DNA of 64,000 nt, from NCBI RefSeq assembly GCF_008065115.1, contig NZ_CP042913.1, positions 2,764,338 through 2,828,337 on the forward strand, written 5' to 3'. Source of the DNA: Bythopirellula goksoeyrii. Lineage in GTDB: Bacteria; Planctomycetota; Planctomycetia; Pirellulales; Lacipirellulaceae. The position numbers and the translations under genes were made by a program. The stretch's first letter is position 1; the number at the start of each line of letters is the position of its first letter. The notes under the pieces are model-generated. The model searched no databases. It was not told the origin of the DNA and saw only the letters and a list, made by a program, of their open reading frames with translations. Positions 4,831 through 23,560 of the stretch are shown here, in pieces.

Positions 4831-6900
4831 TTACCGTAATCCCGCACCTGGGCTGCTCGCCGCACCGTACCCCTGAGCGGCGTTGGCCATGCCTTGTTTC
4901 GTTTCACCGGTCAGAGATGGACCCGCTCGGCGAAGTTCCTCAGTCAATCCGGCAATCGTGTACGTGCCGGGGATTAGAGTAGGTTTCGTCGGGTTCTGTG
5001 CCGAGTAGATTGCCAAGAGGGGAATCTGTTGGGTACCCAGCTCTTGTAACTTCTTGTTGACTTCTGGCGAGGAGTCCTGATGCGTCCAGTCGGCAACGAG
5101 GGTATAGATGTCGTTATCGCGGAAGACGGTTGCCATCTCATCCGTTTTCAGGACGGTCTTTTCCATGAATTTGCAAGTAGGGCACCAGTCTGCTGTGAAA
5201 TCGATAAGCACGGTCTTCCCATGCTCCAACAACCATTGCAGCTTTTTCTCGCTGTAGGGTTGCCATGGTTCTTGGCGTACTGAGTACTCGCCGGTACCTT
5301 CGGAGATTAGTTGCTCGAACCTTGCATCGGCAAGTCGGTTGGCATCTCGCGTATGGCGATATTCCAAAATCGGAGCTAGCCAATAGAACGCCGTAAGTCC
5401 GATGAGTGTGCCGATGGCAATCCCTTCGCCAAGGGCGTTCCAGCGGCGATTGCTGGGGGCCGTCAAAGGGACTCGGCCAATCCACCAGCATACCAGCCAG
5501 ATACCAAACAAGAACGCGACAGTAGGAATCACATAGTGCGGCTTGAGCAACGTCAGCAAATAAACCACGGTGCCGATCAGCACGAATCCCATCAGTTGCT
5601 TGAAGGTATTCATCCATTCCCCCGGTTTGGGGAGGAACCGGATTAGCTGAGGGAACGCACCGATCAGGATGTAGGGACTAGCCATTCCCAATCCGATGGT
5701 GAAGAAAATCGCCATGATTTGCCAGGGGCTCCGACCAAGCACTCCAACTAATGCCGTCCCCATGAAGGGACCCGTGCAAGGAGTTGCCAGGAGTGTGGTA
5801 ATCGTTCCTTTGGCGAACGCACCCTCGTAGCCTTCCTTGCGACCAAATTCGGTAACCTTGCTTGTGCCGATAAAGCCGGGAATCGGTATCTCCCATATTC
5901 CCAAGAAACTTAGCCCCATGGCGAAGATGACGGCCGCCATCGCGATGTTGAACTCGGGGTACTGGAACAATTGTCCCCAACCCAGACCAAAGACGATCGA
6001 GAGAACTGCCAGCAGCAAGAACACGCTAATCACGCCAATGGCATACCACAGGTTTAGCGCAAATATCTTCCAGCGATCTTGCCCGGCTTGCTCAATAAAT
6101 GCAAAGACTTTAAGTCCTATGACAGGCAGTACGCATGGCATCACATTAAGCACCAATCCACCAAGAAATGCCAAGCCTAAGAGGTGAATGAAAGAGCCGC
6201 TTTCACCGGATTCCACGACTACAGGTGCTGTGGCCCCAGGTTGCTCGGAGAAGAGTTTACCTGTTGAAGTCAATGGAGGAGATGAAGCCTTCACGTCAGC
6301 AGCCGAGTCAAATCTCACTCCTGCGGGCAGTGGGAGACCTTCTCCCAGCTGGGCTTGAAACTGTTGATTGAAAGGAACACACGTCTGAGGATTGCAGGCT
6401 TGGCCGACAACCTTGCCGACAATCTCCAGCTTTGCAGGATCGGTACCTTGTGCCAGTTCGATCGGAGCAAACCATGTTACGGTTTTGGCATGCTCTCGGA
6501 TCTGCAGACCTTTCCAGATCTCGTCGTCGATATGCGTATCAGGCGCAGTGGTCGGGTGCCAACTCCCTAGGAGTCGCACCTCAGGATTGGCAGAAAGTTC
6601 AATCGCCGCAGCTAAGGGGCCGCCTCCGCCGTCGGGAAGCGATCCTTGGTCGAGTGCATAGACATGAAAGCCTTCGCCAATTTCAGCCGTCACAAAGAGA
6701 ATGGCCGGTCGACCAGCTTCTGCTGGTGTAAATTCCGCGGTCACAGTGACGGGGTCTTTACTGGCGCTCAGCCCGCCTCCGACATCACCAAAAGTGTCAG
6801 GGAACTCGAATTGGGCGTTGGCGAAACTCCCCCATGCCATCAACAGCATGCTCAGCAAGCTGACGAGGCGACGCGAAGACAAGTTTTGAACTTCAGACAT
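4831..6900 (-). CDS. dsbD: DsbD-type thiol:disulfide interchange protein
   Basis: The protein has about 690 residues and would carry electrons from cytoplasmic thioredoxin across the inner membrane to periplasmic thiols. After a signal-like N-terminus comes the DsbD alpha domain with CNPQTC near residue 168. Next is the eight-helix beta domain with the paired cysteines in MPCVLP (about 257) and ATPCTGP (about 375). A C-terminal thioredoxin domain has DWCPTC near 573. All three redox pairs are intact. The ORF is open to 6978, but ATG 6900 is preceded by AAAGGAAA at good spacing and begins the membrane-targeting segment, so it is preferred. Copper-tolerance DsbD-like proteins share this layout. 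Confidence 0.93.
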   Translation of the reverse strand: MSEVQNLSSRRLVSLLSMLLMAWGSFANAQFEFPDTFGDVGGGLSASKDPVTVTAEFTPAEAGRPAILFVTAEIGEGFHVYALDQGSLPDGGGGPLAAAIELSANPEVRLLGSWHPTTAPDTHIDDEIWKGLQIREHAKTVTWFAPIELAQGTDPAKLEIVGKVVGQACNPQTCVPFNQQFQAQLGEGLPLPAGVRFDSAADVKASSPPLTSTGKLFSEQPGATAPVVVESGESGSFIHLLGLAFLGGLVLNVMPCVLPVIGLKVFAFIEQAGQDRWKIFALNLWYAIGVISVFLLLAVLSIVFGLGWGQLFQYPEFNIAMAAVIFAMGLSFLGIWEIPIPGFIGTSKVTEFGRKEGYEGAFAKGTITTLLATPCTGPFMGTALVGVLGRSPWQIMAIFFTIGLGMASPYILIGAFPQLIRFLPKPGEWMNTFKQLMGFVLIGTVVYLLTLLKPHYVIPTVAFLFGIWLVCWWIGRVPLTAPSNRRWNALGEGIAIGTLIGLTAFYWLAPILEYRHTRDANRLADARFEQLISEGTGEYSVRQEPWQPYSEKKLQWLLEHGKTVLIDFTADWCPTCKFMEKTVLKTDEMATVFRDNDIYTLVADWTHQDSSPEVNKKLQELGTQQIPLLAIYSAQNPTKPTLIPGTYTIAGLTEELRRAGPSLTGETKQGMANAAQGYGAASSPGAGLR

Positions 6901-7356
6901 CCGGTAAGTTTCCTTTGTGACGCGGGGAGTTACCCATACATCCTGTATGAGTAGAAGCGGGATTCTACCAACGGACAAAAAACCCGGTCAATGTCGCTCT
7001 GGTTGCCGATGGATTGCCCAGAATGCCTAGGACCTGGTGACATCTATTAAAGCGGTGTGAATCGAATCGTCTCACATACTGAGTTGCTCAGCACTTTGGA
7101 CGGGGTAACACTTATAATATACCCGTTTTGTCCAAGTTTCATGTCCGGCTGGGAACCGTTTGCCCGAATTCAATCGTTCTGCAATTGCAATCTCAGCAGG
7201 GGATTCAGCTATTCTGGGTGACCAGCATGATTTGCTAGCATTTGTCTGAGTTGATGGCGAAATACGATTTTTCCAGCATCACTCTGAGTGATCAGGACAG
7301 TTGCGGTCACGCACCGCTATGATTTAGACTCTTGCCCCTCGGACAGTATCAATAAT
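6901..7356. other. intergenic stretch, no gene seen
   Basis: These 456 bases lie between the dsbD start and the end of the HD gene. I see no ORF with a ribosome site and no strong hairpin. The only local structure is a weak inverted pair, GGGTAA...TACCC, around 7100-7120. Confidence 0.5.
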
Positions 7357-8688
7357 TCAGCCCGTTAGTTCCGCGGCTTCGGCGATCAACTCGGGTAAGC
7401 GAGGCAAGGACTGCAAATCTTCGGCTACCCGGGGGTGGGCAAAGACGCGGACTCTTTTTACATAGTCGTCGAATTGTTCACGGGCCAGGGTTTTCACGAC
7501 GGGAGAAATGTCTCCGAGACGGCGGTAGCAATGTTCCTTGGGGAAGTGGACGTCGATTTGAAACTCTACTTCCAGCTTTACCGGGGGAGCATCGAAGAGG
7601 ACTTCGTGGGGGGCGACGATTCGTGACATGGCGGTGCTTGCCAGGCCTGCGAAATTTTCAGCGCAGCGAACTAGCCAGGGATATGGCTTGCGGGCTAGGC
7701 GTTGATAGAGTTGGGGCTCCTGGAAAAGGCTGTATTGTGTCACGCGCTTGTAGAGACGGCGCACAGGACCAAACAGTCCGTCGAGTAGTTCACGGGCAGG
7801 CCCGTCGTCGGCCGCAGCAAATAAGGCGTCGATGAGAGGGCGCTCGGTTAAGCGAAACACCGTGTCGGTGTCGAGCATCGGATGCAGCATCACGAAAGCG
7901 CGTTGGAGCATTGCCGTCGCGGACCGCACGGCGTGGTGCCAATAGACTTCGCTGAACATCACATAGCGGGCAAAGACCATCATCTCGGCGGCAGTTTTTC
8001 CTTTGTCGGTGATCGCCAATCCATCGCCAGATTCATTCAGACAGAGGGATTGAATCAAGCGAGTTTGATCGAAATTGCGACCGTAGGGGACACCGGCATG
8101 CAAGCTATCGCGCATCAGGTAGTCGAGTTTGTCGACATCGATGGGACCGGAAAGGAGGCTCTGGAGGATGCGGCTCGGTCGGTCTTTTGGTTTTCCCGAG
8201 AGCAGTTCTACCACTTCACGAGGCTGGATGTCCCATTCGTCGCGCAACGTGTCGGAGAGATCCCCTTCAAGCAAGAAACTGTTGGCAAACAACTCGTGGC
8301 TGGGGACCTGGGGCAGTGAAACGTCTTCAATGGGATGGCAGAATGGCCAATGCCCTAGGTCGTGGAGCAAGGCGGCGATAAGAAAACGCTCTGCATGGTG
8401 AGGAGTGATCGCGGCGGCGAAGCGGGGATCGTCGGCCAGCCGATCCAGAAACAGCAGGGCCATGCGATAGACGCCGAGCGAATGTTCGAACCGTGTGTGA
8501 TTGGCAGCCGGATACACCAAAGCTACCAAGCCAAGCTGGCTGATCTGGCCCAAACGGCGAAACTCTGGGCTGTCGATCAGTTGCTTTACCCGGTCGGTGA
8601 GCGGCACGTCCAATTCGGGCGGTATTCGCACCAAACCATGGCCGCTACGCAAGGCCGCTACTTCGGGGATCTCGCGCAGAGTATCCAT
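7357..8688 (-). CDS. HD-domain phosphohydrolase (SAMHD1/dGTPase-like)
   Basis: This 443-residue cytoplasmic protein has the metal-binding HD signature in order: HTRFEHSLG near residue 64, HDLGHWPFCH near 109, and the distal Asp in DVDKLDYLMRD near 187. The spacing and the EHSLGVYRM and HAGVPYGRNFD stretches place it with the YdhJ/SAMHD1-like HD superfamily, which cleaves nucleotides or deoxynucleoside triphosphates. The actual substrate cannot be told. It starts at ATG 8688, ten bases after the stop of the zinc-ribbon gene upstream, so the two are probably co-transcribed. Confidence 0.9.
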   Translation of the reverse strand: MDTLREIPEVAALRSGHGLVRIPPELDVPLTDRVKQLIDSPEFRRLGQISQLGLVALVYPAANHTRFEHSLGVYRMALLFLDRLADDPRFAAAITPHHAERFLIAALLHDLGHWPFCHPIEDVSLPQVPSHELFANSFLLEGDLSDTLRDEWDIQPREVVELLSGKPKDRPSRILQSLLSGPIDVDKLDYLMRDSLHAGVPYGRNFDQTRLIQSLCLNESGDGLAITDKGKTAAEMMVFARYVMFSEVYWHHAVRSATAMLQRAFVMLHPMLDTDTVFRLTERPLIDALFAAADDGPARELLDGLFGPVRRLYKRVTQYSLFQEPQLYQRLARKPYPWLVRCAENFAGLASTAMSRIVAPHEVLFDAPPVKLEVEFQIDVHFPKEHCYRRLGDISPVVKTLAREQFDDYVKRVRVFAHPRVAEDLQSLPRLPELIAEAAELTG

Positions 8689-13654: not shown

Positions 13655-14713
13655 ATGCAGTATCAAAGGGTCTGCCTGGAATCGCTAGGCTATACATTGC
13701 CAAATGAGGTGGTGACGACCGACGTGCTGGAACAACAACTAGCTCCAGTCTATCAGCGCCTTCGCCTGCCTGCAGGTCGCCTCGAATTGATGACCGGCAT
13801 CCGCGAACGACGATTTTTTGCCCCAGGTACTACTCCTGGGAGTATCAGTTGCCAAAGCGGAAAACGGGCAATTCTCGCTAGCAATTTTGCCCCGAATCTC
13901 ATCGGAGGACTTGTGCATGGGTCGGTGTGTCGCGATTTTCTTGAACCCGCCACGGCCTGTTCGGTACACCACAGCCTGGGACTTCGGGCCGACTGTCTCC
14001 TTTGTGACGTGTCCAATGCTTGTCTAGGGATTCTTACGGGCATCATTCAATTGGCCAACATGATTGAGTTAGGGCAAATCAAGGCGGGTCTGGTGGTGGG
14101 TACCGAATGTGGTCGACAACTCGTGGAGAACACAGTCGAGCGACTCAATGGAGATCAATCGCTGACTCGCCAGAGCATCAAGCAATTGGTGGCGTCGCTG
14201 ACTATCGGCTCGGGAAGTGTGGCTGTACTTCTGTGCGACGAATCGATCAGCCGTACTAGGAATCGCTTGACTACCGCCACGGTACTGGCTGCCACAGCTC
14301 ACCATGAGCTGTGTCGCAGTGAAGGTCTGGAAACCTTTATGCACACAGATAGTGAGCAACTCATGCAACAAGGGGTGGCTGCCGGAGTGGCGACATTTGA
14401 GAGGTTTCTTTCAGACACCAATTGGGATCGCGAGCAAATCGATAAGACCATTTGTCATCAAGTGGGCGTCGCACATCGAAAACTGCTCTTTCAATCGCTT
14501 GGTTTGGATCCTGGACTCGATTTCTCAACGTTTGAGACCCTTGGTAATACCGGCGCCGCGGCATTGCCGCTTACCTTGGCAAGGGCTGCCGAGGCGGGGC
14601 ACATCGCCAGTGGTGATCGGGTGGCATTGATGGGCATCGGATCGGGGATTAATTGCCAGATGTTGGCGGTTGAGTGGAACGAGACGCAGGTGCGAGGTGG
14701 CAGCGAGGAGTGA
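13655..14713 (+). CDS. OleA-like thiolase (FabH-fold, long-chain beta-ketoacid synthase)
   Basis: This 352-residue thiolase-fold protein has the full Cys-His-Asn triad: DVSNACLGIL (Cys near 121), ICHQVGVAHRK (His near 268), and ETLGNTGAAAL (Asn near 297). Several stretches match my memory of OleA, which condenses two fatty acyl-CoAs head to head in olefin synthesis, better than FabH: CRDFLEPATAC, HHELCRS, and the C-terminal LMGIGSGINCQML. Some planctomycetes make the polyunsaturated C31:9 alkene through Ole proteins (established knowledge). No oleB, oleC or oleD is in the window. A FabH-like priming synthase for the nearby lipid cluster is the alternative. Confidence 0.88.
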   Translation: MQYQRVCLESLGYTLPNEVVTTDVLEQQLAPVYQRLRLPAGRLELMTGIRERRFFAPGTTPGSISCQSGKRAILASNFAPNLIGGLVHGSVCRDFLEPATACSVHHSLGLRADCLLCDVSNACLGILTGIIQLANMIELGQIKAGLVVGTECGRQLVENTVERLNGDQSLTRQSIKQLVASLTIGSGSVAVLLCDESISRTRNRLTTATVLAATAHHELCRSEGLETFMHTDSEQLMQQGVAAGVATFERFLSDTNWDREQIDKTICHQVGVAHRKLLFQSLGLDPGLDFSTFETLGNTGAAALPLTLARAAEAGHIASGDRVALMGIGSGINCQMLAVEWNETQVRGGSEE

Positions 14714-14760: not shown

Positions 14761-16311
14761 CTAGGAAAATGCGATTACCAAACCGACTACCAAAACCACT
14801 AATACGCCGACGGCGATCAATCCATAGACCCAGCCTGGGGTGCCGTAGCGGGGACCGGAGTATCCCGGCGGGCGGAGGGGATCGACTTCACCTGGGAGTG
14901 AGCGTGGAAGGGGTTTTAGTTTTTCCTTCTTCTCCGCCATTTCAAAGGCTTCTTCGACCAGCGAGACTCGTGGCTTGTCGGAGACGGTTTCTGCCATTGC
15001 CGCCGAGATATCGTCGGTTATGCTCTCGCTGGTGGAGGCGAAATCTTCGGATTCTTCGGGTTCGGCTTCTTCTTCGATCGGGGCCAAGCCGATGTCTTCT
15101 TCCGGTTGCTTATCTTCAGGCGGTGAGAGGAGCTTCTTGGCAGACTTGCCGGGAGCAGAACTGCCACCGGAATCGCTGCCTCGGTTGATGGATTGGGCGA
15201 ATCGGCGGAAGACGTCGCTGCCAACGCCACCCTTCGAGTCGAGATTCTTGCCGCTGTCTCCCACATCTCGGCCGCGGTCCGCCAGCCATTCTGCTAGTCG
15301 ATTGACGACGTCGTCTGCTGTCTGATACCGATCGGCTGGCTTCTTAGCCATCATCGTTTCACAGATGTGCAGTAGAATCGGGGGAGCGTCAGGCCGATCC
15401 TTTAAGATGCTGGGGGCTATCTCGACTTGATGCTTGAGTAGGCGTTCGGAAATGGAACCCTCTGGGAAAGGAGGGTGGCCTGTCAGCAGGAAGTAGAGGG
15501 TGCAACCAAGGCTGTAAATATCCGATCTAGAGTCCGCCTTGTGGCTATTAAGTGCTTGTTCCGGTGCGAGATAGTCGGCCGTTCCAAGGACGTTCTCATT
15601 GTTATCGAGAGTGAGTGAGGCTTCGTCGTCGATCAATCTTGCCAACCCTAGGTCGAGCAATTTGACGACCCCATTTTTGTCGACGAGACAATTGGCAGGT
15701 TTGATATCGCGATGCACGAGTCCCATCTCATGGGCATGCGACAACCCACGAGCCACTTGGGCGATGTAGTCAGCAGCCAACAGATAATCAAGCGGCCCCT
15801 TTTCCTTGACCAATTGGTGTAAGTCTTGCCCCTCGACGTACTCCATCACGATGTAGTGTTGGCCTTCGTGTTCGTCGATGTCATAAGTATGGATGATGTT
15901 AGGATCGTCGAGCTTTGCCGCTGCTCGAGCTTCGATTCGAAAGCGATCGAGGTAAGTTGAATCGGCGACTTTACCCTTCGGAAGCACTTTGATTGCCCTA
16001 CGTGCCCGCATCAAGATATGCTCAGCGAGGTAAACGCTGCTCATACCTCCCTTGCCGAGCATGCGGAGCAATTTGTATTTGCCGAGAAGGAATCCCCGAT
16101 GCTTGCCGGCGAGCAGTTTTTCGGATTGCCAGTTGGTGAGCAATTCCGCTTCGACCAAGGCCTTGGCTAGGGCTTCTTGAGTTTCGGGTAGCTTCCCGCC
16201 ATTCTCTTTGCGCAGCTTGGCTAGGAAACGCTCCAACTGTTCTTCTTCAACCAGTTGGCTGCGTTTTACTAGATCAACAAAATTCTGATTCTGAGCCACT
16301 ACTTTGGTCAT
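14761..16311 (-). CDS. Hanks-type Ser/Thr protein kinase with C-terminal membrane anchor
   Basis: This 516-residue kinase begins with a Leu/Gln-rich helical region of about 75 residues. The kinase domain follows (about 75-350): glycine loop LGKGGMSSVYLA, Lys in RRAIKVLPKG, catalytic loop VHRDIKPANCLV near 202, DLG in place of DFG, and APEQAL. An acidic, Ser-rich stretch (about 370-460) leads to a single membrane helix, GWVYGLIAVGVLVVLVVGLVIA, at the very C-terminus. The catalytic domain is therefore cytoplasmic with almost nothing outside. This is typical of planctomycete kinases. The substrate is unknown. Confidence 0.93.
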   Translation of the reverse strand: MTKVVAQNQNFVDLVKRSQLVEEEQLERFLAKLRKENGGKLPETQEALAKALVEAELLTNWQSEKLLAGKHRGFLLGKYKLLRMLGKGGMSSVYLAEHILMRARRAIKVLPKGKVADSTYLDRFRIEARAAAKLDDPNIIHTYDIDEHEGQHYIVMEYVEGQDLHQLVKEKGPLDYLLAADYIAQVARGLSHAHEMGLVHRDIKPANCLVDKNGVVKLLDLGLARLIDDEASLTLDNNENVLGTADYLAPEQALNSHKADSRSDIYSLGCTLYFLLTGHPPFPEGSISERLLKHQVEIAPSILKDRPDAPPILLHICETMMAKKPADRYQTADDVVNRLAEWLADRGRDVGDSGKNLDSKGGVGSDVFRRFAQSINRGSDSGGSSAPGKSAKKLLSPPEDKQPEEDIGLAPIEEEAEPEESEDFASTSESITDDISAAMAETVSDKPRVSLVEEAFEMAEKKEKLKPLPRSLPGEVDPLRPPGYSGPRYGTPGWVYGLIAVGVLVVLVVGLVIAFS

Positions 16312-16661: not shown

Positions 16662-17483
16662 CTAGGCTCCTGACGAGTTTGTCCCCAGGAAGCCGGCAAT
16701 CAGACGCTGGTCAAAGTAGTTCACTTCCATGCCCGCATCGATCACTAGCCGCTGGGCATTGATCCCGCTTGATTTTGGGCTAAGTAGAAAAGCTACGGTA
16801 GCTGCTACTTCGGCAGTTTGAACGGCCCTACCCCGGAGTGTTGCCCGCTCGGCATAGAGATACGAGTCAACGTAGCCGGGGATTCCAGCCGAAGCAGAGG
16901 TCTTTAAGAGCCCTGGTGCTACGGCGTTGAACCGGACCTCGGAGAAGTTGCTGAACGATTTCGCCAAGAAGGCTAGGCTCGAATCGAGGGCAGCCTTTAC
17001 GGGGGCCATGAAGCCGTAGTTCTCGCTGGCCATCCGGGTGGTGGAGATGGAGACCGTCACGACCGACGCTTGGGGAGTGAGCAAATCCTTGAAGGCGTTC
17101 GAGATGGCCACTAAAGAGAAGCACGAGATGTCGAGGGCCCGCAGGAATTGCTCCTTATTGGTTTCGTGAAACGGCTTGGGACCCTCGGAGTAATCGCCAA
17201 ACGCGATCGAATGGACAATACCATCGAGTCGTTCGAATCGTGCGGAAAGCTCATGTGCTAGGGCTTCGATTTGCTCGGGAAACTCCACGTCGCAGACGAA
17301 GATGGGGAGGTCACCGGCGAGTTTGGCCACCGATTCACGCCGCTCCGGTGAGCGGACCACCAAGGCTACTTCGACACCCGCGTCCCCAAGCTCCTGCACC
17401 ACATGCCAGGCGACGCTCTTGCGATTGGCCACGCCGAATACGGCGATGCGTTTGCCTTCAAGTTGCAGAAAGTCGGCGGGCAT
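16662..17483 (-). CDS. fabI: enoyl-ACP reductase FabI-like
   Basis: This 273-residue SDR-fold reductase would reduce the enoyl-ACP double bond with NAD(P)[13 protein letters not shown] at residues 17-28 is the FabI nucleotide-binding variant. The active-site pair is [10 protein letters not shown], with Tyr near 156 and Lys near 163, the same spacing and numbering as E. coli FabI. It is the last gene of the cluster and its start overlaps the fabZ stop by one base, so translation is probably coupled. It may serve the dedicated lipid pathway rather than, or as well as, general fatty acid synthesis. Confidence 0.93.
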
Positions 17484-17917
17484 TACTCGGACTCGGGTTT
17501 GGTCAGTGTGCAGGCGAAATCAAACCGAGTGGCGACCTTTCCATCGACCGTTACCCGGGCTTTCATGAAAAAAGCGTTGGAGAGTTGTTCGACGAGGCTG
17601 GTCTCGATGAGGACGGTGTCACCGGGGCGTACCATTTTCTTGAACTGAACGTTATTCGCTCGGGTCGCCACGGGCACTGCCGAAGGATCATCGGCAACGC
17701 GTTTGGACAGCAATACAGCCCCCGCTTGCATGGCCGCCTCGCATAAGAGGACGCCCGGAGTAATCGGGAATTTGGGATAGTGCCCCTGATACCAGAATTC
17801 TTCGCCCGTGAACGTCTTACGGCAGACGATGCGATCTTCCGACTGTTCGACGATTTCGTCAATCAAGAGGAAAGGCTCTCGATGGGGGATGGCTGCTTTG
17901 ATGGCTTCGAGTGACAT
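17483..17917 (-). CDS. fabZ: 3-hydroxyacyl-ACP dehydratase FabZ-like
   Basis: This 144-residue hotdog-fold dehydratase removes water from 3-hydroxyacyl-ACP. The catalytic His lies in [19 protein letters not shown] near residue 46, with the conserved Glu of CEAAMQ near 60. [13 protein letters not shown] at residues 10-22 is the usual N-terminal strand. The length is normal. It overlaps fabI by one base and follows the CrtI-like gene by 11 bases, so it sits inside a tight operon. Confidence 0.94.
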
Positions 17918-17928
17918 AAATGTTGGGA

Positions 17929-19377
17929 CTAATCTGCGATGGAAGCAGCTGGACGTGAGCCTTTGGTCGTGAGCAGGTTGTCGACGTCGCTGGCGACCAT
18001 GCGGCCGTAGTTCATCGCCCCCAACCAGCCGGACATGATAATACCGACACTGCCGGCGTGATAGAGGCCCTCGATTTGCTTGGGGATGTCGAAGCTGACC
18101 CGCAGGCCTTCGAACTTGGTGCCAAAGCTGGCCCCGGCAACATGCTGGGTATAGTGCTTGAAGGTCATCGGCGTAGACGCTTCGGCGTGGTCGATCCGCT
18201 CACGGACGTTGGGCACATACTTGTCGAGGGCGTCGAGCGTGGTCTCGACAAGGTCAAGTTTGCTTTCTGCATAGTCTTCCTCGCTGAGTTCCGCCCAATC
18301 TTCGTAGCGGGCGTTCGTGCTGGAGACAATCAGGCAGCGAGGTCGACCCTCGGGACGGGTACGAGGATAATAAAACGAGTAAGTACGGCTGGTGATATCG
18401 CGACTCAGAAGCAGATCAGTTCGAAACACGGGAGCCGTCGAGCTAAAGAGCAAGTCGCCCGTGGATTCGTCGATCGTGTCATCAGCCTTCAGGGCCATGT
18501 AGACCTGGGTACTGGAGTTGTTGAGCCGAACAGCTTGGGCATCTTCAACAAACTGTGGTTCAAATTTCTCCTCTCCCACGAGCCGGAAAATGGTTTGCTT
18601 GAGGTTGGCGTTGGAGACGACCGCTTTTGTCTTGATAACACGGCCACCGACTTCGACGCCCGTTACGCGACCGCCCTCGCAGTGGATCCGCTCCACATCA
18701 CAGCGAATACGGATATCGACGCTGTTGCGTTTGAGTTCCGCCTCCATGAGGCCGATCAGCCGATCGGTTCCTCCCCGAAAGGTGTAAACCCCTTTGGACA
18801 TGAAATTGGAAAACACGATGCCATAGCTAATCGCGGGATCTTCAAGCGTGCTGCCATTGGCATAGGTAATCGGCTCCATTAGGAGGCGAATCACATCTTC
18901 TCGGCCGGGGAAGAAGCGGTCGAACAACTCGCGAGTCGTGAGGTGCTGATCGTCCTGGAAGTCCATCTTACGGGCCGCATCGAAGAATCCATGCACCGCT
19001 TCTGGTGCCACCTGGAACTGTTCGATCAGCAGCTTGGTGAAATCCTCTCGATTGAACGAAGTAGTGAGCGAGAACATCGGGTTGTCGAACCGGATGTGGT
19101 TGAGCTGCACAATACTGTCGGCAATCTCGCGGGTCCAATACCGCCGGCAACTCTTGACCATGCCATAGGGAAAGCCGTGGAGCGAGATATCAAAGATGTG
19201 CCCGCCTGGGCGCTTAAACCAGGTGGCCATCCCGCCGAGTTTGTAGTGCTGCTCCAGGAGAAGTACCCGGTAACCGGTCGCCCCGAGCATATTGGCCGCC
19301 GTCATACCGGCCAGGCCACTGCCGATGACGATCACGTCGTATTCATCTTGGGCGTCTTTAAGGAAATCTTTGGGCAT
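17929..19377 (-). CDS. CrtI/phytoene-desaturase-like FAD oxidoreductase A
   Basis: This protein of about 482 residues has an N-terminal FAD-binding motif, [18 protein letters not shown], and ends in the CrtI-type C-terminal motif [21 protein letters not shown]. The fold matches phytoene desaturases, carotenoid isomerases and retinol saturases, which add or remove hydrogen across conjugated double bonds. No carotenoid gene (crtB, crtE) is nearby; the neighbours are fabZ, fabI, acp and fabF, so an acyl substrate is inferred. ATG 19377 (MPKDFLK) is chosen because the upstream 23 codons lack family character. Confidence 0.9.
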
Positions 19378-19456
19378 GGAGTGGGTAATTTGTAGAGGTC
19401 CATTTTCTTCGCATTCTAACCCGGCGCGGAATAGGACGCAAACCACTTGCTATCGG

Positions 19457-20113
19457 CTATGGCCCAATCCAAATAACTAACGTCTCGGCATTCTCAGCAG
19501 TCTGATTTATGACCGACGTATTATCTACCTGTTGTTCGATGCCATGCCGCACACACAGCAGCAAAACTGGTTCGTCCGCATTCATGTGAGTAACGCGTTC
19601 AAATCCTGCATCACTGGATTGGATGTTCTTTGGTAGCTCTTGATACCAATCTTCTCCAGGCCTGAGTTGCATGGTGCCACGAATCTCATTCTTGGTAGCA
19701 TAGCGAATCCACCACTTGCCACCATAGTCTTCAACTGAGAGCTCAAACGAAAAGTGACCAGGTTCCAGCTTGCCAAGAATGCGACGTTGAGGATGGTTAT
19801 TCTCTAGCCAATCATTCAAGTCACCGGGCAAAATCTCTCCAAAAGAACCTTCCGAGACATAGAGTTGATATGAACTCGAAGTTGGAAGGCATAGTTCCCA
19901 TCTCCAGCAACTGCCAGTTATCGTCTTGCGGCGTTGGACATGAAGCAACGATGGATCATCAACATAGAACTGTCCAAGTTCCTTTTTCAATTCTCGGACA
20001 GTGTCTCTTAGCGGGATTACTTCTCGACTATTTTGCCATAGGGCAGTTCCAAGTGCTACGATGGTCATGATTAAAAGCAGAGTGAGCAGCTTTATTCGCG
20101 GGCGAAGTTTCAT
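19457..20113 (-). CDS. unknown protein with N-terminal membrane anchor
   Basis: This 218-residue protein starts with basic residues and a hydrophobic helix (KLLTLLLIMTIVALGTALW). A mostly soluble domain with Trp-rich strands follows. ATG 20113 has GGAG ten bases upstream; the ORF is open to 20206 but that would overlap the next gene. I do not recognise it. It sits with the following small gene between the two CrtI-like genes, in a stretch that reads AT-richer than its flanks. Confidence 0.7.
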   Translation of the reverse strand: MKLRPRIKLLTLLLIMTIVALGTALWQNSREVIPLRDTVRELKKELGQFYVDDPSLLHVQRRKTITGSCWRWELCLPTSSSYQLYVSEGSFGEILPGDLNDWLENNHPQRRILGKLEPGHFSFELSVEDYGGKWWIRYATKNEIRGTMQLRPGEDWYQELPKNIQSSDAGFERVTHMNADEPVLLLCVRHGIEQQVDNTSVINQTAENAETLVIWIGP

Positions 20114-20195
20114 GCCCTGAATTCTCCGGGATTTCCCGAACTTGAGTTTCAATATGACGAGAAAGGCACACAAGCACAAATCGTGATCGGAATGC

Positions 20196-20414
20196 CTATT
20201 TTCCATTCACGCTTGCGTTAGGGATCACACAACTGACATTGATGATCGAAATCACTGCGTTCCGCTTCACGCCCTCATCATCGTAGAGGATGCCCGCCGT
20301 GTAGTCACCGACAATAATGAATTCCGGTTTCTCGACGAAGTACTCCCTACCGTCATTCATGCGAATTTGTAAAGGGCACTCGGCTATCAACTCTCGAAGT
20401 TCTGAGTTTTCCAT
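20196..20414 (-). CDS. small unknown protein, 72 residues
   Basis: This 72-residue protein starts at ATG 20414 just after AGGAGG (four bases between), the strongest ribosome site in this region. It reads MENSELRELIAECPLQIRMN and looks like a small beta-rich domain (REYFVEKPEFIIVGDYTAGIL). It somewhat resembles small planctomycete proteins that sit alone between genes. No function can be assigned. It precedes the membrane-anchored unknown gene by 82 bases. Confidence 0.65.
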   Translation of the reverse strand: MENSELRELIAECPLQIRMNDGREYFVEKPEFIIVGDYTAGILYDDEGVKRNAVISIINVSCVIPNASVNGK

Positions 20415-20504
20415 GAAACCTCCTGAGGACAAAAGGCGACTCTTGAAGATCGTTATATTCTACAATACCGAATGGCGAAAATCTACGGCGAGGCGGCGAT
20501 GGTC

Positions 20505-20532
20505 GGGGGCGAGGACGCCCCGGCTCGCTAGT
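20505..20532. repeat. GC-rich hairpin repeat, copy 1
   Basis: GGGGGCGAGGACGCCCCGGC is followed by TCGCTAGT. The stretch is nearly identical to 22282-22310. It can fold as GGGCG...CGCCC. In this copy the stop codon of FAD oxidoreductase B lies inside the repeat. Confidence 0.7.
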
Positions 20533-21910
20533 CGCGCAGGCAGTGTTGATTCGCCATCGAGATGCCGCTCATGATGCTGCCAATGATGCCGACGAAGCCT
20601 TGGTCCGTGCCACAGATGAACAAGTTTGGCAAGTGCGTGCGGCCGTCGAGTTGTTTGTCGGGGGCACCGTAGATCGCGCCGTAGTCGTGGCCGGTGAAGC
20701 GGACGATTGTGGTGGGAGTAAACATATCGGTATCGAGTACACGACTGCGATAGTCGGGCACAAACCGCACGGCGGAATCGGTGATGCGGTCGTACCAACG
20801 GAGTTTTTCGAGGCGATAGGTATCTTCGTCGAGACCTTGCCAGTAGTTGAAATTGGCGAGGGCTGTGATGCGCATCGTGCCGCAGATTTTCTCGGACTCG
20901 GCAGCGTAGTCAAAATTGTTGGGGCTGCAGATGACGCCGCTGCGCACGTCGCACGGTTCGGAGGGAACGGTCCAATGGAAAGTGTCACTGTCGTTAAAGA
21001 AAGTAATTGTCGAGCGGTGGCCCAAGTCACGTGGCTGCTGGTCAAGCGACGCGATGGTTTCGCAAAACGTGAGTCGTCCGGAAGAGCGTGGGGTGACGGG
21101 TTGGCCATCGTCACAGAGTCGCATCGTTTCGTGCCAGCCAGCGGAGGAGAGTACCCGCCGACCGGCAAAGTGTTCGCCATTTTCGAGTATCACGCCCGTA
21201 GTCTGGCCATTTTCGACGACGATCTCTTTCACCCCTGCCCGGAGTTTCAGTTCGCCCCCTAGACCACGGAATTTGCGCACCAGTTGTTTGAGAATCAGTC
21301 GTACTCCGGCGTGGGGACGACCCAGTCCCTCAAGAAAGATGCTGCGGAACATGATAGAGAATTGGCCCCAGTCCATGTCGTGCTCACGGGCTGAGCCGTA
21401 AAACATCAAGGGGCAGAAAAGCATCTCTACCAATAGCGGCTCGGAGATGAACTCGGCGACTCGCTCCCGAGCAGAGATTTCTTGGTGTGTTTGGTCGAGA
21501 TCGTCGTACTCGACAATCGCGTCGATGAGCTGATTGAAGTTTGCCGCCTGCTCTGGGAATTCGCTGGCAACCTCGGATCGCAAATGATCGATTTCATTGT
21601 CGAATCGCAAACGCACTCCGGGAAAGACGACTTCGGAGCCTAGCTGTGGCGATATTTGCAACTCGTCCCAGGGGATTTTGAGTTGCCGCAGGAGGCGCGC
21701 GAGGGGTCCTTTTTTGGTTCCCTTTGGCGTAAAATTGGTGAGCGCGTGCAGGCCGACGTCGTAATCACGTCCGCGTAGGCGGTAGAAGGAATTCAGCCCA
21801 CCGATCGTAGTGTGACGCTCAAGAATGCAGACCCGCTGGTCGTAATAGGCAAGTCGAATCCCCGCCGCCAAACCCGACATTCCTGCGCCGATAATGATCG
21901 TATCATACAT
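20528..21910 (-). CDS. CrtISO/CrtI-like FAD oxidoreductase B
   Basis: This 460-residue flavoprotein has the dinucleotide-binding motif TIIIGAGMSGLAAGIRL at residues 4-20, followed by ILERHTTIGG. The C-terminal GTDQGFVGIIGSIMSGISMAN is the CrtI/CrtISO signature. It differs clearly from oxidoreductase A in the same cluster, so the two are probably sequential or partner enzymes rather than recent duplicates. It starts 63 bases after the acp stop. The likely chemistry is desaturation, saturation or isomerisation of a conjugated acyl chain; the substrate is inferred from context only. Confidence 0.9.
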   Translation of the reverse strand: MYDTIIIGAGMSGLAAGIRLAYYDQRVCILERHTTIGGLNSFYRLRGRDYDVGLHALTNFTPKGTKKGPLARLLRQLKIPWDELQISPQLGSEVVFPGVRLRFDNEIDHLRSEVASEFPEQAANFNQLIDAIVEYDDLDQTHQEISARERVAEFISEPLLVEMLFCPLMFYGSAREHDMDWGQFSIMFRSIFLEGLGRPHAGVRLILKQLVRKFRGLGGELKLRAGVKEIVVENGQTTGVILENGEHFAGRRVLSSAGWHETMRLCDDGQPVTPRSSGRLTFCETIASLDQQPRDLGHRSTITFFNDSDTFHWTVPSEPCDVRSGVICSPNNFDYAAESEKICGTMRITALANFNYWQGLDEDTYRLEKLRWYDRITDSAVRFVPDYRSRVLDTDMFTPTTIVRFTGHDYGAIYGAPDKQLDGRTHLPNLFICGTDQGFVGIIGSIMSGISMANQHCLRD

Positions 21911-21973
21911 TGCGAGGATTCATGAAGAAGCAAGCTACATGTCATTCCGCAATCCGAATTCCGCAATCCGAAT

Positions 21974-22237
21974 TCATTTGGCTTTTTCTACGTCCTTCAA
22001 AATGGGCTTGAGATAGGTGACGGTGGAATCCATGCTGGCCAGATTGAGGTAGTCGTCCTCGGGGATTTGGATGCGGTGGCGCTTGCGGAGTTCCATCACG
22101 ATATCTAGAAAATCCATGCTGTCGAGTTCTAGTTGCTCGCGGAAGTTTTTCGAATCGTCGAGATCCGACAAGTCTTCGTCTGGGGCAATGTTCTCGAGAA
22201 TATCGAGGACTTCTTCTCTGATTTCTTCTGCGTTCAT
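21974..22237 (-). CDS. dedicated acyl carrier protein
   Basis: This 87-residue acidic helical protein has the phosphopantetheine site LELDSMDFLDIVMEL, with Ser near residue 40. The sequence differs from the usual housekeeping ACP motif (DSLD). This and its position between fabF and the CrtI-like genes suggest a pathway-specific carrier. The length is normal for a discrete ACP. Confidence 0.92.
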   Translation of the reverse strand: MNAEEIREEVLDILENIAPDEDLSDLDDSKNFREQLELDSMDFLDIVMELRKRHRIQIPEDDYLNLASMDSTVTYLKPILKDVEKAK

Positions 22238-22281
22238 AGGGTTATTAGCTCCGCTAGATTGATAGTTATTCGTAGTAAGAA

Positions 22282-22310
22282 CGGGGGCGGGGACGCCCCG
22301 GCTCGCTAGT
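22282..22310. repeat. GC-rich hairpin repeat, copy 2
   Basis: CGGGGGCGGGGACGCCCC is followed by GGCTCGCTAGT, matching 20505-20532 with one or two changes. It lies just past the fabF stop on the minus strand. Both copies follow stop codons within the same cluster, so they may be processing or attenuation hairpins, or dispersed repeats. Confidence 0.7.
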
Positions 22311-22315
22311 GTTCG

Positions 22316-23560
22316 TTAAACATTCTTGATGATTACGACTGAGTTGATACCCAGCATACCAAATGAGTTGTTGAGGATGTAAGTCACCCCCTTTTTCGTG
22401 CGGGGTTCGCCCAGAATGAGTCCCGGCAAGGCACATTCTGGATCGAGGTTGTCTACGTTGATCGTATGATGACAGAAATCGTCCTCAAAGGATGGCAAAT
22501 TGCCGGCCAATTCCAGCGATCCGGCAGCTCCCATCGCATGGCCGATGAAGCTCTTCGTGTTGTTGATGAGCGTGTTTGCTGAATCGCCGAAAACGTTCCT
22601 CAGTGCGACACACTCCTGGATGTCACCGCTGGTGGTTGCTGTGGCGTGGGTACTGACGATATCGATCTGGTCGGCGTTGATTTGGGCACGTTTAAGGGCC
22701 AGATTCATGCAGCGTGCCTGCTGCTGGGGATTGGGGAGGACAAAATCGCTGGCATCACTGGTCATCGCATGGCCGACCAATTCGCCGTAGATCTTAGCGT
22801 CCCGCTTGGCGGCATCGCTGTAACGCTCCAGAATGAAGAGGCTGCCCCCCTCGGCGACAACGATGCCATTGCGGTCGAGGTCGAAGGGTCGGCTCGCCTT
22901 GGTTGGGTCTCCATTTTCGGCGAGAGCACCCTGGCTGGCAAAGCCGGCAAAAATTCCAAAGGTACGAATGCTTTCAGAGACGCCCCCCGCAATTGCCAGG
23001 TCACACTCGCCCAGTTGCAGCATTTGCGCGCCTTGGATGAGACCGGCATTGCCCGCCGCACAGGCGGCGCCGATAGTATAGTGCGGACCGGTGATCCCCA
23101 TATTCAAGGTGACTTCGCCGGCGGGGTTGTTGGCTACGGTGCGGGGATTGTGATGATGGGACCAAACCTTCGTGTCGTAGTCGAAGGCCTTGATCTCGTT
23201 GATCTCATTCTCTGTTTCGACGTTACCGTGCTCAGTCACGCCGATATAGACACCAACACGCTCGGGGTCGATCTTGCTCCACTCAAGACCAGAATCGGCA
23301 ACCGCCTGATTGGCGCAATAAATTGACACACTGCCAGCTCGGGTGCCGCGGCGAAGCTCTTTGCGTTTCTGGTAGAGCAGCTCGTCGAAATGACACTCGC
23401 CTGCCAGAGTGTCCCCAACGTAACGAATATGATAGTTGTCGACACCGCTTTTGCCGGCCAAGAGCGCAGCACGAAAGTCGGCCAAGTTGTCACCGTTGGG
23501 GGCAGTCAGCCCGATGCCGGTGATCACGATTCGCTGGTCATCCACTGCACTACGGATCAT
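22316..23560 (-). CDS. beta-ketoacyl-ACP synthase II-like (FabF)
   Basis: This 414-residue condensing enzyme has the KAS II triad: Cys in GAACAAGNAG near residue 167, His in STHATATTSGD near 304, and His in SFIGHAMGAAGS near 338. Lys of NNTKSF, needed in KAS enzymes, is also present. The usual THGTST reads THATAT, which suggests a divergent subfamily. It is the first gene of the cluster and would elongate the acyl chain on the dedicated ACP. No partner chain-length-factor gene is present. Confidence 0.93.
   Translation of the reverse strand: MIRSAVDDQRIVITGIGLTAPNGDNLADFRAALLAGKSGVDNYHIRYVGDTLAGECHFDELLYQKRKELRRGTRAGSVSIYCANQAVADSGLEWSKIDPERVGVYIGVTEHGNVETENEINEIKAFDYDTKVWSHHHNPRTVANNPAGEVTLNMGITGPHYTIGAACAAGNAGLIQGAQMLQLGECDLAIAGGVSESIRTFGIFAGFASQGALAENGDPTKASRPFDLDRNGIVVAEGGSLFILERYSDAAKRDAKIYGELVGHAMTSDASDFVLPNPQQQARCMNLALKRAQINADQIDIVSTHATATTSGDIQECVALRNVFGDSANTLINNTKSFIGHAMGAAGSLELAGNLPSFEDDFCHHTINVDNLDPECALPGLILGEPRTKKGVTYILNNSFGMLGINSVVIIKNV

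Follow-up and report, generated by a model that had tools for sequence, protein, structure and literature searches.

A type II fatty-acid cassette with two CrtI-like flavoenzymes as a probable acyl-chain supplier for Ole hydrocarbon synthesis in Planctomycetota

Within a 64,000-nucleotide stretch of the Bythopirellula goksoeyrii genome (hereafter the window; positions 2764338–2828337 of one 6,473,141-base contig), six genes (fabF, acp, a CrtISO-like gene termed crtISO, a CrtI-like gene termed crtI, fabZ and fabI) form what we call the cassette. We consider it likely that this cassette is a dedicated acyl-chain factory of discrete type II proteins serving the hydrocarbon-forming enzymes OleABCD, its product most likely a polyene, and that it fills the place of Pfa, the polyunsaturated fatty acid (PUFA) synthase. 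Gene content, intact active sites, linkage to ole genes in some of the genomes, co-occurrence with oleC, exclusion of PfaD and matched OleC lineages give supply to Ole good inferential support. A previous sequence-only reading had left the product unclear; our analysis would narrow it to an acyl chain from which OleABCD make a hydrocarbon. As that reading had it, open reading frames (ORFs) and Pfam matches place all six genes on the minus strand; they are listed here with an oleA-like gene beyond fabI (aa, amino acids; ACP, acyl carrier protein; FAD, flavin adenine dinucleotide):

22316..23560, minus strand: fabF-like beta-ketoacyl-ACP synthase, 414 aa, opening gene of the cassette (ketoacyl-synt PF00109, 131.5 bits)
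21974..22237, minus strand: dedicated acyl carrier protein, 87 aa, attachment Ser in DSMD (PP-binding PF00550, 33.9 bits)
20528..21910, minus strand: CrtISO-like FAD enzyme, 460 aa (Amino_oxidase PF01593, 48.8 bits)
17929..19377, minus strand: CrtI-like FAD enzyme, 482 aa from the ATG at 19377 (Amino_oxidase PF01593, 72.1 bits)
17483..17917, minus strand: fabZ-like 3-hydroxyacyl-ACP dehydratase, 144 aa (FabA-like PF07977, 72.2 bits)
16662..17483, minus strand: fabI-like enoyl-ACP reductase, 273 aa (enoyl-ACP reductase PF13561, 198.8 bits)
13655..14713, plus strand: oleA-like head-to-head acyl condensing enzyme, 352 aa (NF006720, 437.3 bits, cut-off 285)

The last three cassette genes are as tightly spaced as had been described, with an 11-base gap between crtI and fabZ and a 1-base overlap between fabZ and fabI. 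The CrtI-like ORF, first given as 17929–19446 and opening at a GTG at 19446 that adds 23 residues, most likely starts at the ATG at 19377, since relatives in other loci (L073, L074 and L076 among them) begin at the matching MPKDFL. Two motifs singled out earlier as divergent, THATAT in fabF and DSMD in acp, are indeed present but are family traits rather than defects, the catalytic residues being kept across relatives. In alignments of cassette relatives, where certain genomes are counted twice, FabF retains its catalytic Cys, His, Lys and His in 61/61 rows, FabZ its active-site His and Glu in 85/85 and FabI its Tyr and Lys in 65/65, while the Ser-Met of DSMD occurs in all 63 ACP rows that have letters there, 15 of the 78 rows having a gap. 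Among the matches listed, FabF, FabI and ACP fall under the cut-offs of the NCBIfam models for the standard enzymes (316.4 against 493.75 bits for the fabF model; at most 170.4 bits, under every cut-off, for the FabI models), and FabZ lies just under that of PRK00006 (112.4 against 113 bits). The cassette is a divergent second fatty-acid synthesis (FAS) module, working-looking by its intact catalytic residues.

Had these fab genes been the only copies in the genome, they could have been housekeeping genes. In the B. goksoeyrii genome, ketoacyl-synthase matches number 8, PP-binding matches 10 and FabA/Z-type matches 4, and the top-scoring ketosynthase and carrier protein lie together at 5.29 Mb, away from the cassette; because these separate fabF and acp copies exist, we rule out that the cassette is the housekeeping FAS. 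Together with the intact catalytic residues, they support the earlier proposal that a dedicated acyl chain is built on a carrier of its own. A polyunsaturated chain is plausible, and no finding bears on a cyclic one. The window cassette contains no fabG, and a FabG relative lies in the fatty-acid region at 5.29 Mb. The same genome holds a second odd FAS-like group, consisting of a ketosynthase, two FabA-like proteins and an ACP (about 7484–10563 of L062, genome positions 6316000–6335000).

Conservation of gene order was examined in 41 regions (the window and 40 relatives) and in 80 loci from named organisms, 79 with planctomycete names and one titled ‘bacterium’; these are the best 80 of 551, so the list gives no evidence of absence elsewhere. 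The six-gene order is far above chance, with all five partners lying near crtI in 19/41 regions and 22/80 loci, and a fabG is present in nine of the 41 regions, in eight of them between crtI and fabZ. Judged by CrtI, the named organism nearest to B. goksoeyrii is Bythopirellula polymerisocia Pla144, at 94% identity, and the crtI family extends to isolates of Bythopirellula, Botrimarina, Stieleria and Rhodopirellula, among others, with the full cassette beside crtI in Bythopirellula (L113) and Botrimarina (L132). Searches of plasmids returned only distant FAD enzymes, at 22–55% identity, the upper values over short stretches. One of these, on the Pseudalkalibacillus plasmid NZ_CP156675.1 (L258), has 22.8% identity to the CrtISO-like enzyme and adjoins genes for an ACP, a dehydratase of the FabZ family, an enoyl-CoA hydratase and a 3-oxoacyl-ACP synthase III, and so constitutes another FAS-plus-FAD cluster.

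The link to hydrocarbon synthesis begins in the window itself, where the oleA-like gene lies 1.9 kb past fabI on the opposite strand, beyond the coordinates covered by the sequence-only reading, which missed it; it matches the oleA beside the cassette in L073 at 456 bits. The B. goksoeyrii genome carries oleC and oleD at 2.00 Mb; at 2.01 Mb it encodes a protein related (48% identity, 8e-93) to the hydrolase that we take as OleB, so that the OleABCD set looks complete. In other genomes ole genes recur among the conserved cassette neighbours: relatives of OleD are found in 28 loci and relatives of OleC in 15, both at median positions upstream. Their NCBIfam scores (429 bits to an OleD model, 569 bits to an OleC model) are under the cut-offs of these narrow models, while the OleC relative exceeds the cut-off of a broader ligase family and the OleA relative that of its own family. 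One locus (L228) carries oleA-oleB-oleC-oleD-fabF-acp-crtISO-crtI-fabZ-fabI on a single strand, fabF following oleD after 632 bases; another (L231) runs fabF-acp-crtISO-crtI-fabG-fabZ-fabI-oleA-(oleB)-oleC with small gaps or overlaps, its oleD 4.7 kb further on. OleB was assigned from L231 by position and alpha/beta-hydrolase family, its scores being under the NCBIfam haloalkane dehalogenase cut-offs; in L074 a 324-aa protein encoded between oleC and oleD was rejected as OleB, as it is not hydrolase-like and matched only four loci including its own. Beside oleC in L231 an ORF (5686–7389, minus strand) has a start that, read by eye, resembles a B12-type radical-SAM protein.

At least one ole gene lies near crtI in 17/41 regions and 22/80 named-organism loci. 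Distances were taken in 65 genomes with positions for both crtI and oleC (the crtISO position standing in for two, G032 and G215), of which 37 have both genes on one contig, 25 of them within 10 kb and 28 within 30 kb; in the other 28 the genes are on different contigs, which is undecisive for linkage. PfaD and oleC share a contig in 20 of the 42 PfaD genomes that carry oleC, 18 of these within 30 kb, so cassette and Pfa alike often adjoin ole.

We then turned to the distribution of these genes over 294 Planctomycetota genomes, part of them incomplete assemblies. The CrtI-like query matched 84 genomes at 1e-20 and resolved into a sharp family of 66, B. goksoeyrii included, whose other members are 43–78% identical to the window CrtI, and a remainder of 18 at 24–28% identity. 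The crtISO family (at 1e-40) likewise numbers 66 genomes, OleC 110 and PfaD, the enoyl reductase used as the marker of Pfa, 43. Both FAD families occur together in 65 of the 67 genomes that have either, the two exceptions being 80% and 54% complete, and 66 of the 67 carry oleC, the exception being an 80% complete assembly. PfaD genomes carry oleC in 42/43 cases, and PfaD and the cassette share a genome in none of the 294; PfaD is thus found in 0/67 cassette genomes, including B. goksoeyrii, and the locus lacks the pairing of PfaD with a multidomain PfaA. The 110 oleC genomes comprise 66 with the cassette, 42 with PfaD, one with a PfaA-type synthase over its cut-off (G141) and one with neither (G076), such that 109 have exactly one type of supplier, counting G141 by its PfaA. 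By family, 10 are cassette-only, 20 Pfa-only and 2 mixed. Fisher tests give extreme values (2e-28 within the oleC genomes) that ignore kinship; because the genomes are related, we rely on the pattern instead.

An OleC tree of 79 of these 110 genomes (44 with the cassette, 34 with Pfa, again counting G141 by its PfaA, and G076) bears on how that pattern arose. A single branch, with support of 100/99, parts the 44 cassette from the 34 Pfa sequences, and Pfa members of family f4 and a cassette member of family f49 group by supplier, not by family. That OleC lineages match supplier type argues for functional coupling between supplier and Ole; there are two matched Ole systems, each travelling with its own supplier. 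Many independent swaps between Pfa and cassette are rejected, the tree requiring just one label change.

Several points weigh against this interpretation. The single branch means that the exclusivity rests on few independent events, that is, on two matched systems with a few transfers, so that the Fisher values overstate independence. OleC presence was called from one protein search at 1e-70, few matches being checked against OleC models. One oleC genome (G076, 93% complete, on the Pfa side of the tree) has no cassette, PfaD or PfaA. No partner lies near crtI in 9/41 regions and 27/80 loci, some of them cut by contig ends, and crtI and oleC are more than 780 kb apart in nine same-contig genomes, B. 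goksoeyrii among them. Although the B. goksoeyrii genome lacks PfaD, it encodes a 3715-aa polyketide-type synthase whose PfaA score barely exceeds the cut-off (1012.7 against 1010.1 bits); this protein has a thioester-reductase-like neighbour (L063, genome positions 2884000–2903000) and is possibly a long-chain alcohol or glycolipid synthase. Finally, the FAD enzymes could saturate the chain instead of desaturating it.

The separation of oleC, oleD and the OleB relative from the cassette in B. goksoeyrii, together with three Rhodopirellula loci (L162, L172 and L175) whose crtI has no partner nearby, would also fit a cassette that makes its chain for another lipid, such as a membrane lipid, with the ole linkage incidental. 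We judge this improbable: the FAD families occur only with oleC, in 66 of 67 genomes, and OleC phylogeny tracks supplier type.

The two FAD enzymes of the cassette resemble carotenoid enzymes, which invites the reading that they are a carotenoid desaturase and isomerase that happen to lie beside unrelated fab genes. Both show weak matches to the CrtD, CrtISO and crtI_fam models of NCBIfam, with 81.6 and 56.2 bits to crtI_fam (TIGR02734) against a cut-off of 238.1, and they stay under the cut-off of every model listed (the best 25 of 74 for the CrtI-like enzyme, 21/21 for the CrtISO-like one). In phylogenetic trees each family forms its own clade (100/100), apart from carotenoid CrtI and from anammox-type sequences, rather than grouping firmly with carotenoid desaturases. 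The first of two trees took 4/16 carotenoid rows; the second took 15/16, omitted three long outgroup rows and included one very long branch (L253, a 1005-residue wrong reading). Both place the cassette families as neighbours, a position from which we conclude nothing, since long branches meet there. With no crtI_fam match at 1e-60 in the B. goksoeyrii genome either, and with a gene order shared with fab and ole genes, we reject the carotenoid reading as highly improbable.

Structural models of the CrtI-like and CrtISO-like enzymes (AlphaFold2, AF2; predicted local distance difference test, pLDDT, 84.5 and 85.7) both find their best Protein Data Bank match in 4rep, a gamma-carotene desaturase, each at a template-modelling (TM) score of 0.72, with 16% identity to the models. 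It is the fold, rather than the reaction, that this match establishes. Enzymes of the CrtI family work on long hydrocarbon chains, and a cassette that feeds Ole might deliver something other than a PUFA, for instance a conjugated polyene or a chain with trans double bonds or another modification; alternatively, the FAD pair might act only after condensation, on the hydrocarbon, as CrtI does on phytoene. The shared best match to a carotenoid desaturase would suit such a product, and linkage and co-occurrence speak for supply to Ole rather than for the identity of what is supplied. The placement of crtISO and crtI between acp and fabZ, inside the FAS run of many genomes, argues the other way, as does complementarity with PfaD, which suggests a similar product; we regard these variants as rather unlikely.

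The combination of FAS genes with phytoene-desaturase-like genes had also suggested a kinship with the ladderane clusters proposed in anammox planctomycetes, in which a polyunsaturated chain would be built for cyclization. The common logic of fabF, acp, fabZ and phytoene-desaturase-like genes is there (PMC2649909; kuste3603–3608 in PMC4790861; also an anammox-type locus, L220), and the L220 FAD gene exceeds the threshold of a loose crtISO profile and is therefore a relative. That kinship is not borne out, however. The anammox-type FAD enzymes are only about 24–28% identical to the window CrtI and form a clade of their own, to which the window CrtI does not belong. Beside its FAD gene, L220 has a B12-binding radical-SAM gene and, read by eye, two ketosynthase-like ORFs, whereas the 13 window ORFs scanned with Pfam include no radical-SAM gene, as had been noted from the sequence. 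Nor does the sole cassette FabF, which keeps its Cys, His, Lys and His, show a substituted active site like that given for the non-canonical FabF Kuste3606 (PMC2649909). Of the 18 weak CrtI matches, 17 fall in families f45 and f76 and one in another genome (G123). We take these two families for anammox bacteria because 15 of the 17 genomes carry the hydrazine-synthase alpha domain, mostly in frames of about 810–845 aa, and none of the 17 is among the 110 with oleC. That domain alone (PF18582) is no anammox marker, since 57/294 genomes have matches over its cut-off, up to at least 16 each and many in frames longer than 1000 aa. On these grounds we reject the ladderane reading as extremely improbable.

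Two smaller features of the window stand outside this argument. The spacer of about 1.1 kb between the FAD genes holds two small ORFs:

19457–20206, minus strand: small ORF, 249 aa
20196–20432, minus strand: small ORF, 78 aa

The 249-aa ORF, which the scan covered, has no Pfam or NCBIfam match at 0.001, and neither ORF has a match above the score thresholds in the 40 relative regions. Because of this, and because only 107 bases separate crtISO from crtI in Bythopirellula polymerisocia (L113), the pair is probably a strain-specific, apparently recent insertion outside the system. Between fabI and oleA lies a Ser/Thr kinase (14761–16311); 19 loci have a kinase cluster in the vicinity of crtI, nine of them on the crtI strand.

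Taken together, these observations are consistent with a mechanism in which FabF, FabZ and FabI would assemble a chain carried by the ACP of the cassette, with FabG contributed by the cassette in some lineages and in B. goksoeyrii presumably from elsewhere in the genome. The two CrtI-family flavoenzymes, the part that an ordinary FAS lacks, may then insert double bonds into the ACP-bound chain, set their cis/trans geometry, or both. The acyl-ACP would pass to OleA, which would join two such chains, and OleB, OleC and OleD would convert the result to a long-chain hydrocarbon. The end product is most likely a polyene resembling the C31:9 hydrocarbon that Rattray et al. cite for planctomycetes; such a product, like the chemistry of the FAD pair and the hand-over to OleA, we infer. 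Sukovich and colleagues reportedly described C31:9 from Planctomyces maris in 2010. Throughout the Planctomycetota Ole genomes with a cassette, the cassette would thus take the place of the PUFA synthase.

We see an even chance that this amounts to a third machinery for polyunsaturated chains, beside desaturase/elongase systems and PUFA synthases: one of type II, with its own ACP, in which a CrtI-family pair installs or isomerizes the double bonds and a multidomain synthase is not required, inherited with its own Ole lineage and widespread in Planctomycetota. Polyene hydrocarbons in planctomycetes that lack Pfa could then be explained, and two large CrtI-like families would gain a role; such clusters are easily misread as ladderane or carotenoid genes, which calls for caution. 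Our literature searches listed no paper that describes this cassette. In the available parts of their paper, Rattray et al. (PMC2649909) neither linked FASII (type II FAS) clusters to ole nor described the cassette, and we therefore regard it as a new supplier for a known hydrocarbon pathway. How bacteria that have neither oxygen-dependent desaturases nor a PUFA synthase make polyunsaturated chains is a question that the same authors raised for Desulfotalea and anammox bacteria (Rattray et al. 2009, PMC2649909). To this question the cassette brings a defined group of few genes, whose role can be read out by way of the Ole hydrocarbon or, where OleA acts alone, of the ketone.

Three known systems invite comparison. 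With carotenoid CrtI and CrtISO, the cassette pair shares its fold and FAD motif but not NCBIfam scores over cut-off, clades or gene neighbours; two desaturase-like enzymes from Kuenenia, for their part, made no lycopene (Javidpour et al. 2016, PMC4790861). The FASII clusters of Kuenenia and Desulfotalea likewise combine FASII genes with CrtI-like (phytoene-dehydrogenase-like) FAD enzymes, a combination proposed as an anaerobic PUFA route, and Desulfotalea psychrophila, whose consecutively numbered DP2405 and DP2406 may belong to the cassette families, produces C31:8 and C31:9 hydrocarbons although no PUFA pathway is known from it; C31:9-type hydrocarbons are also cited there for planctomycetes, via the descriptions of Schlesneria and Singulisphaera (Rattray et al. 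2009, PMC2649909). The FAD enzymes sampled from anammox-type genomes differ from those of the cassette in their separate clade and, in L220, in sitting with a radical-SAM gene.

The third system, Pfa, is a multidomain synthase with PfaD and also has dehydratase domains, whereas the cassette consists of discrete type II proteins and two CrtI-family flavoenzymes. Polyunsaturated hydrocarbon (PUHC) synthesis in Shewanella depends on the Pfa synthase, which feeds OleA; OleA condenses a predicted 16:4n-3 chain, most likely taken from the ACP domains, to give the 31:9 product after OleBCD, and expression of pfaA–E with oleA in Escherichia coli gives a 31:8 ketone (PMC6463001). Shulse and Allen proposed that Pfa-like synthases supply Ole in one planctomycete and in certain Deltaproteobacteria (PMC3098273). 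Pfa, whose link to OleABCD is seen in Shewanella, in Geobacter and in part of the Planctomycetes, shares with the cassette its ketosynthase, ACP and enoyl-reductase functions and a frequent position beside ole (PMC6463001, PMC3098273).

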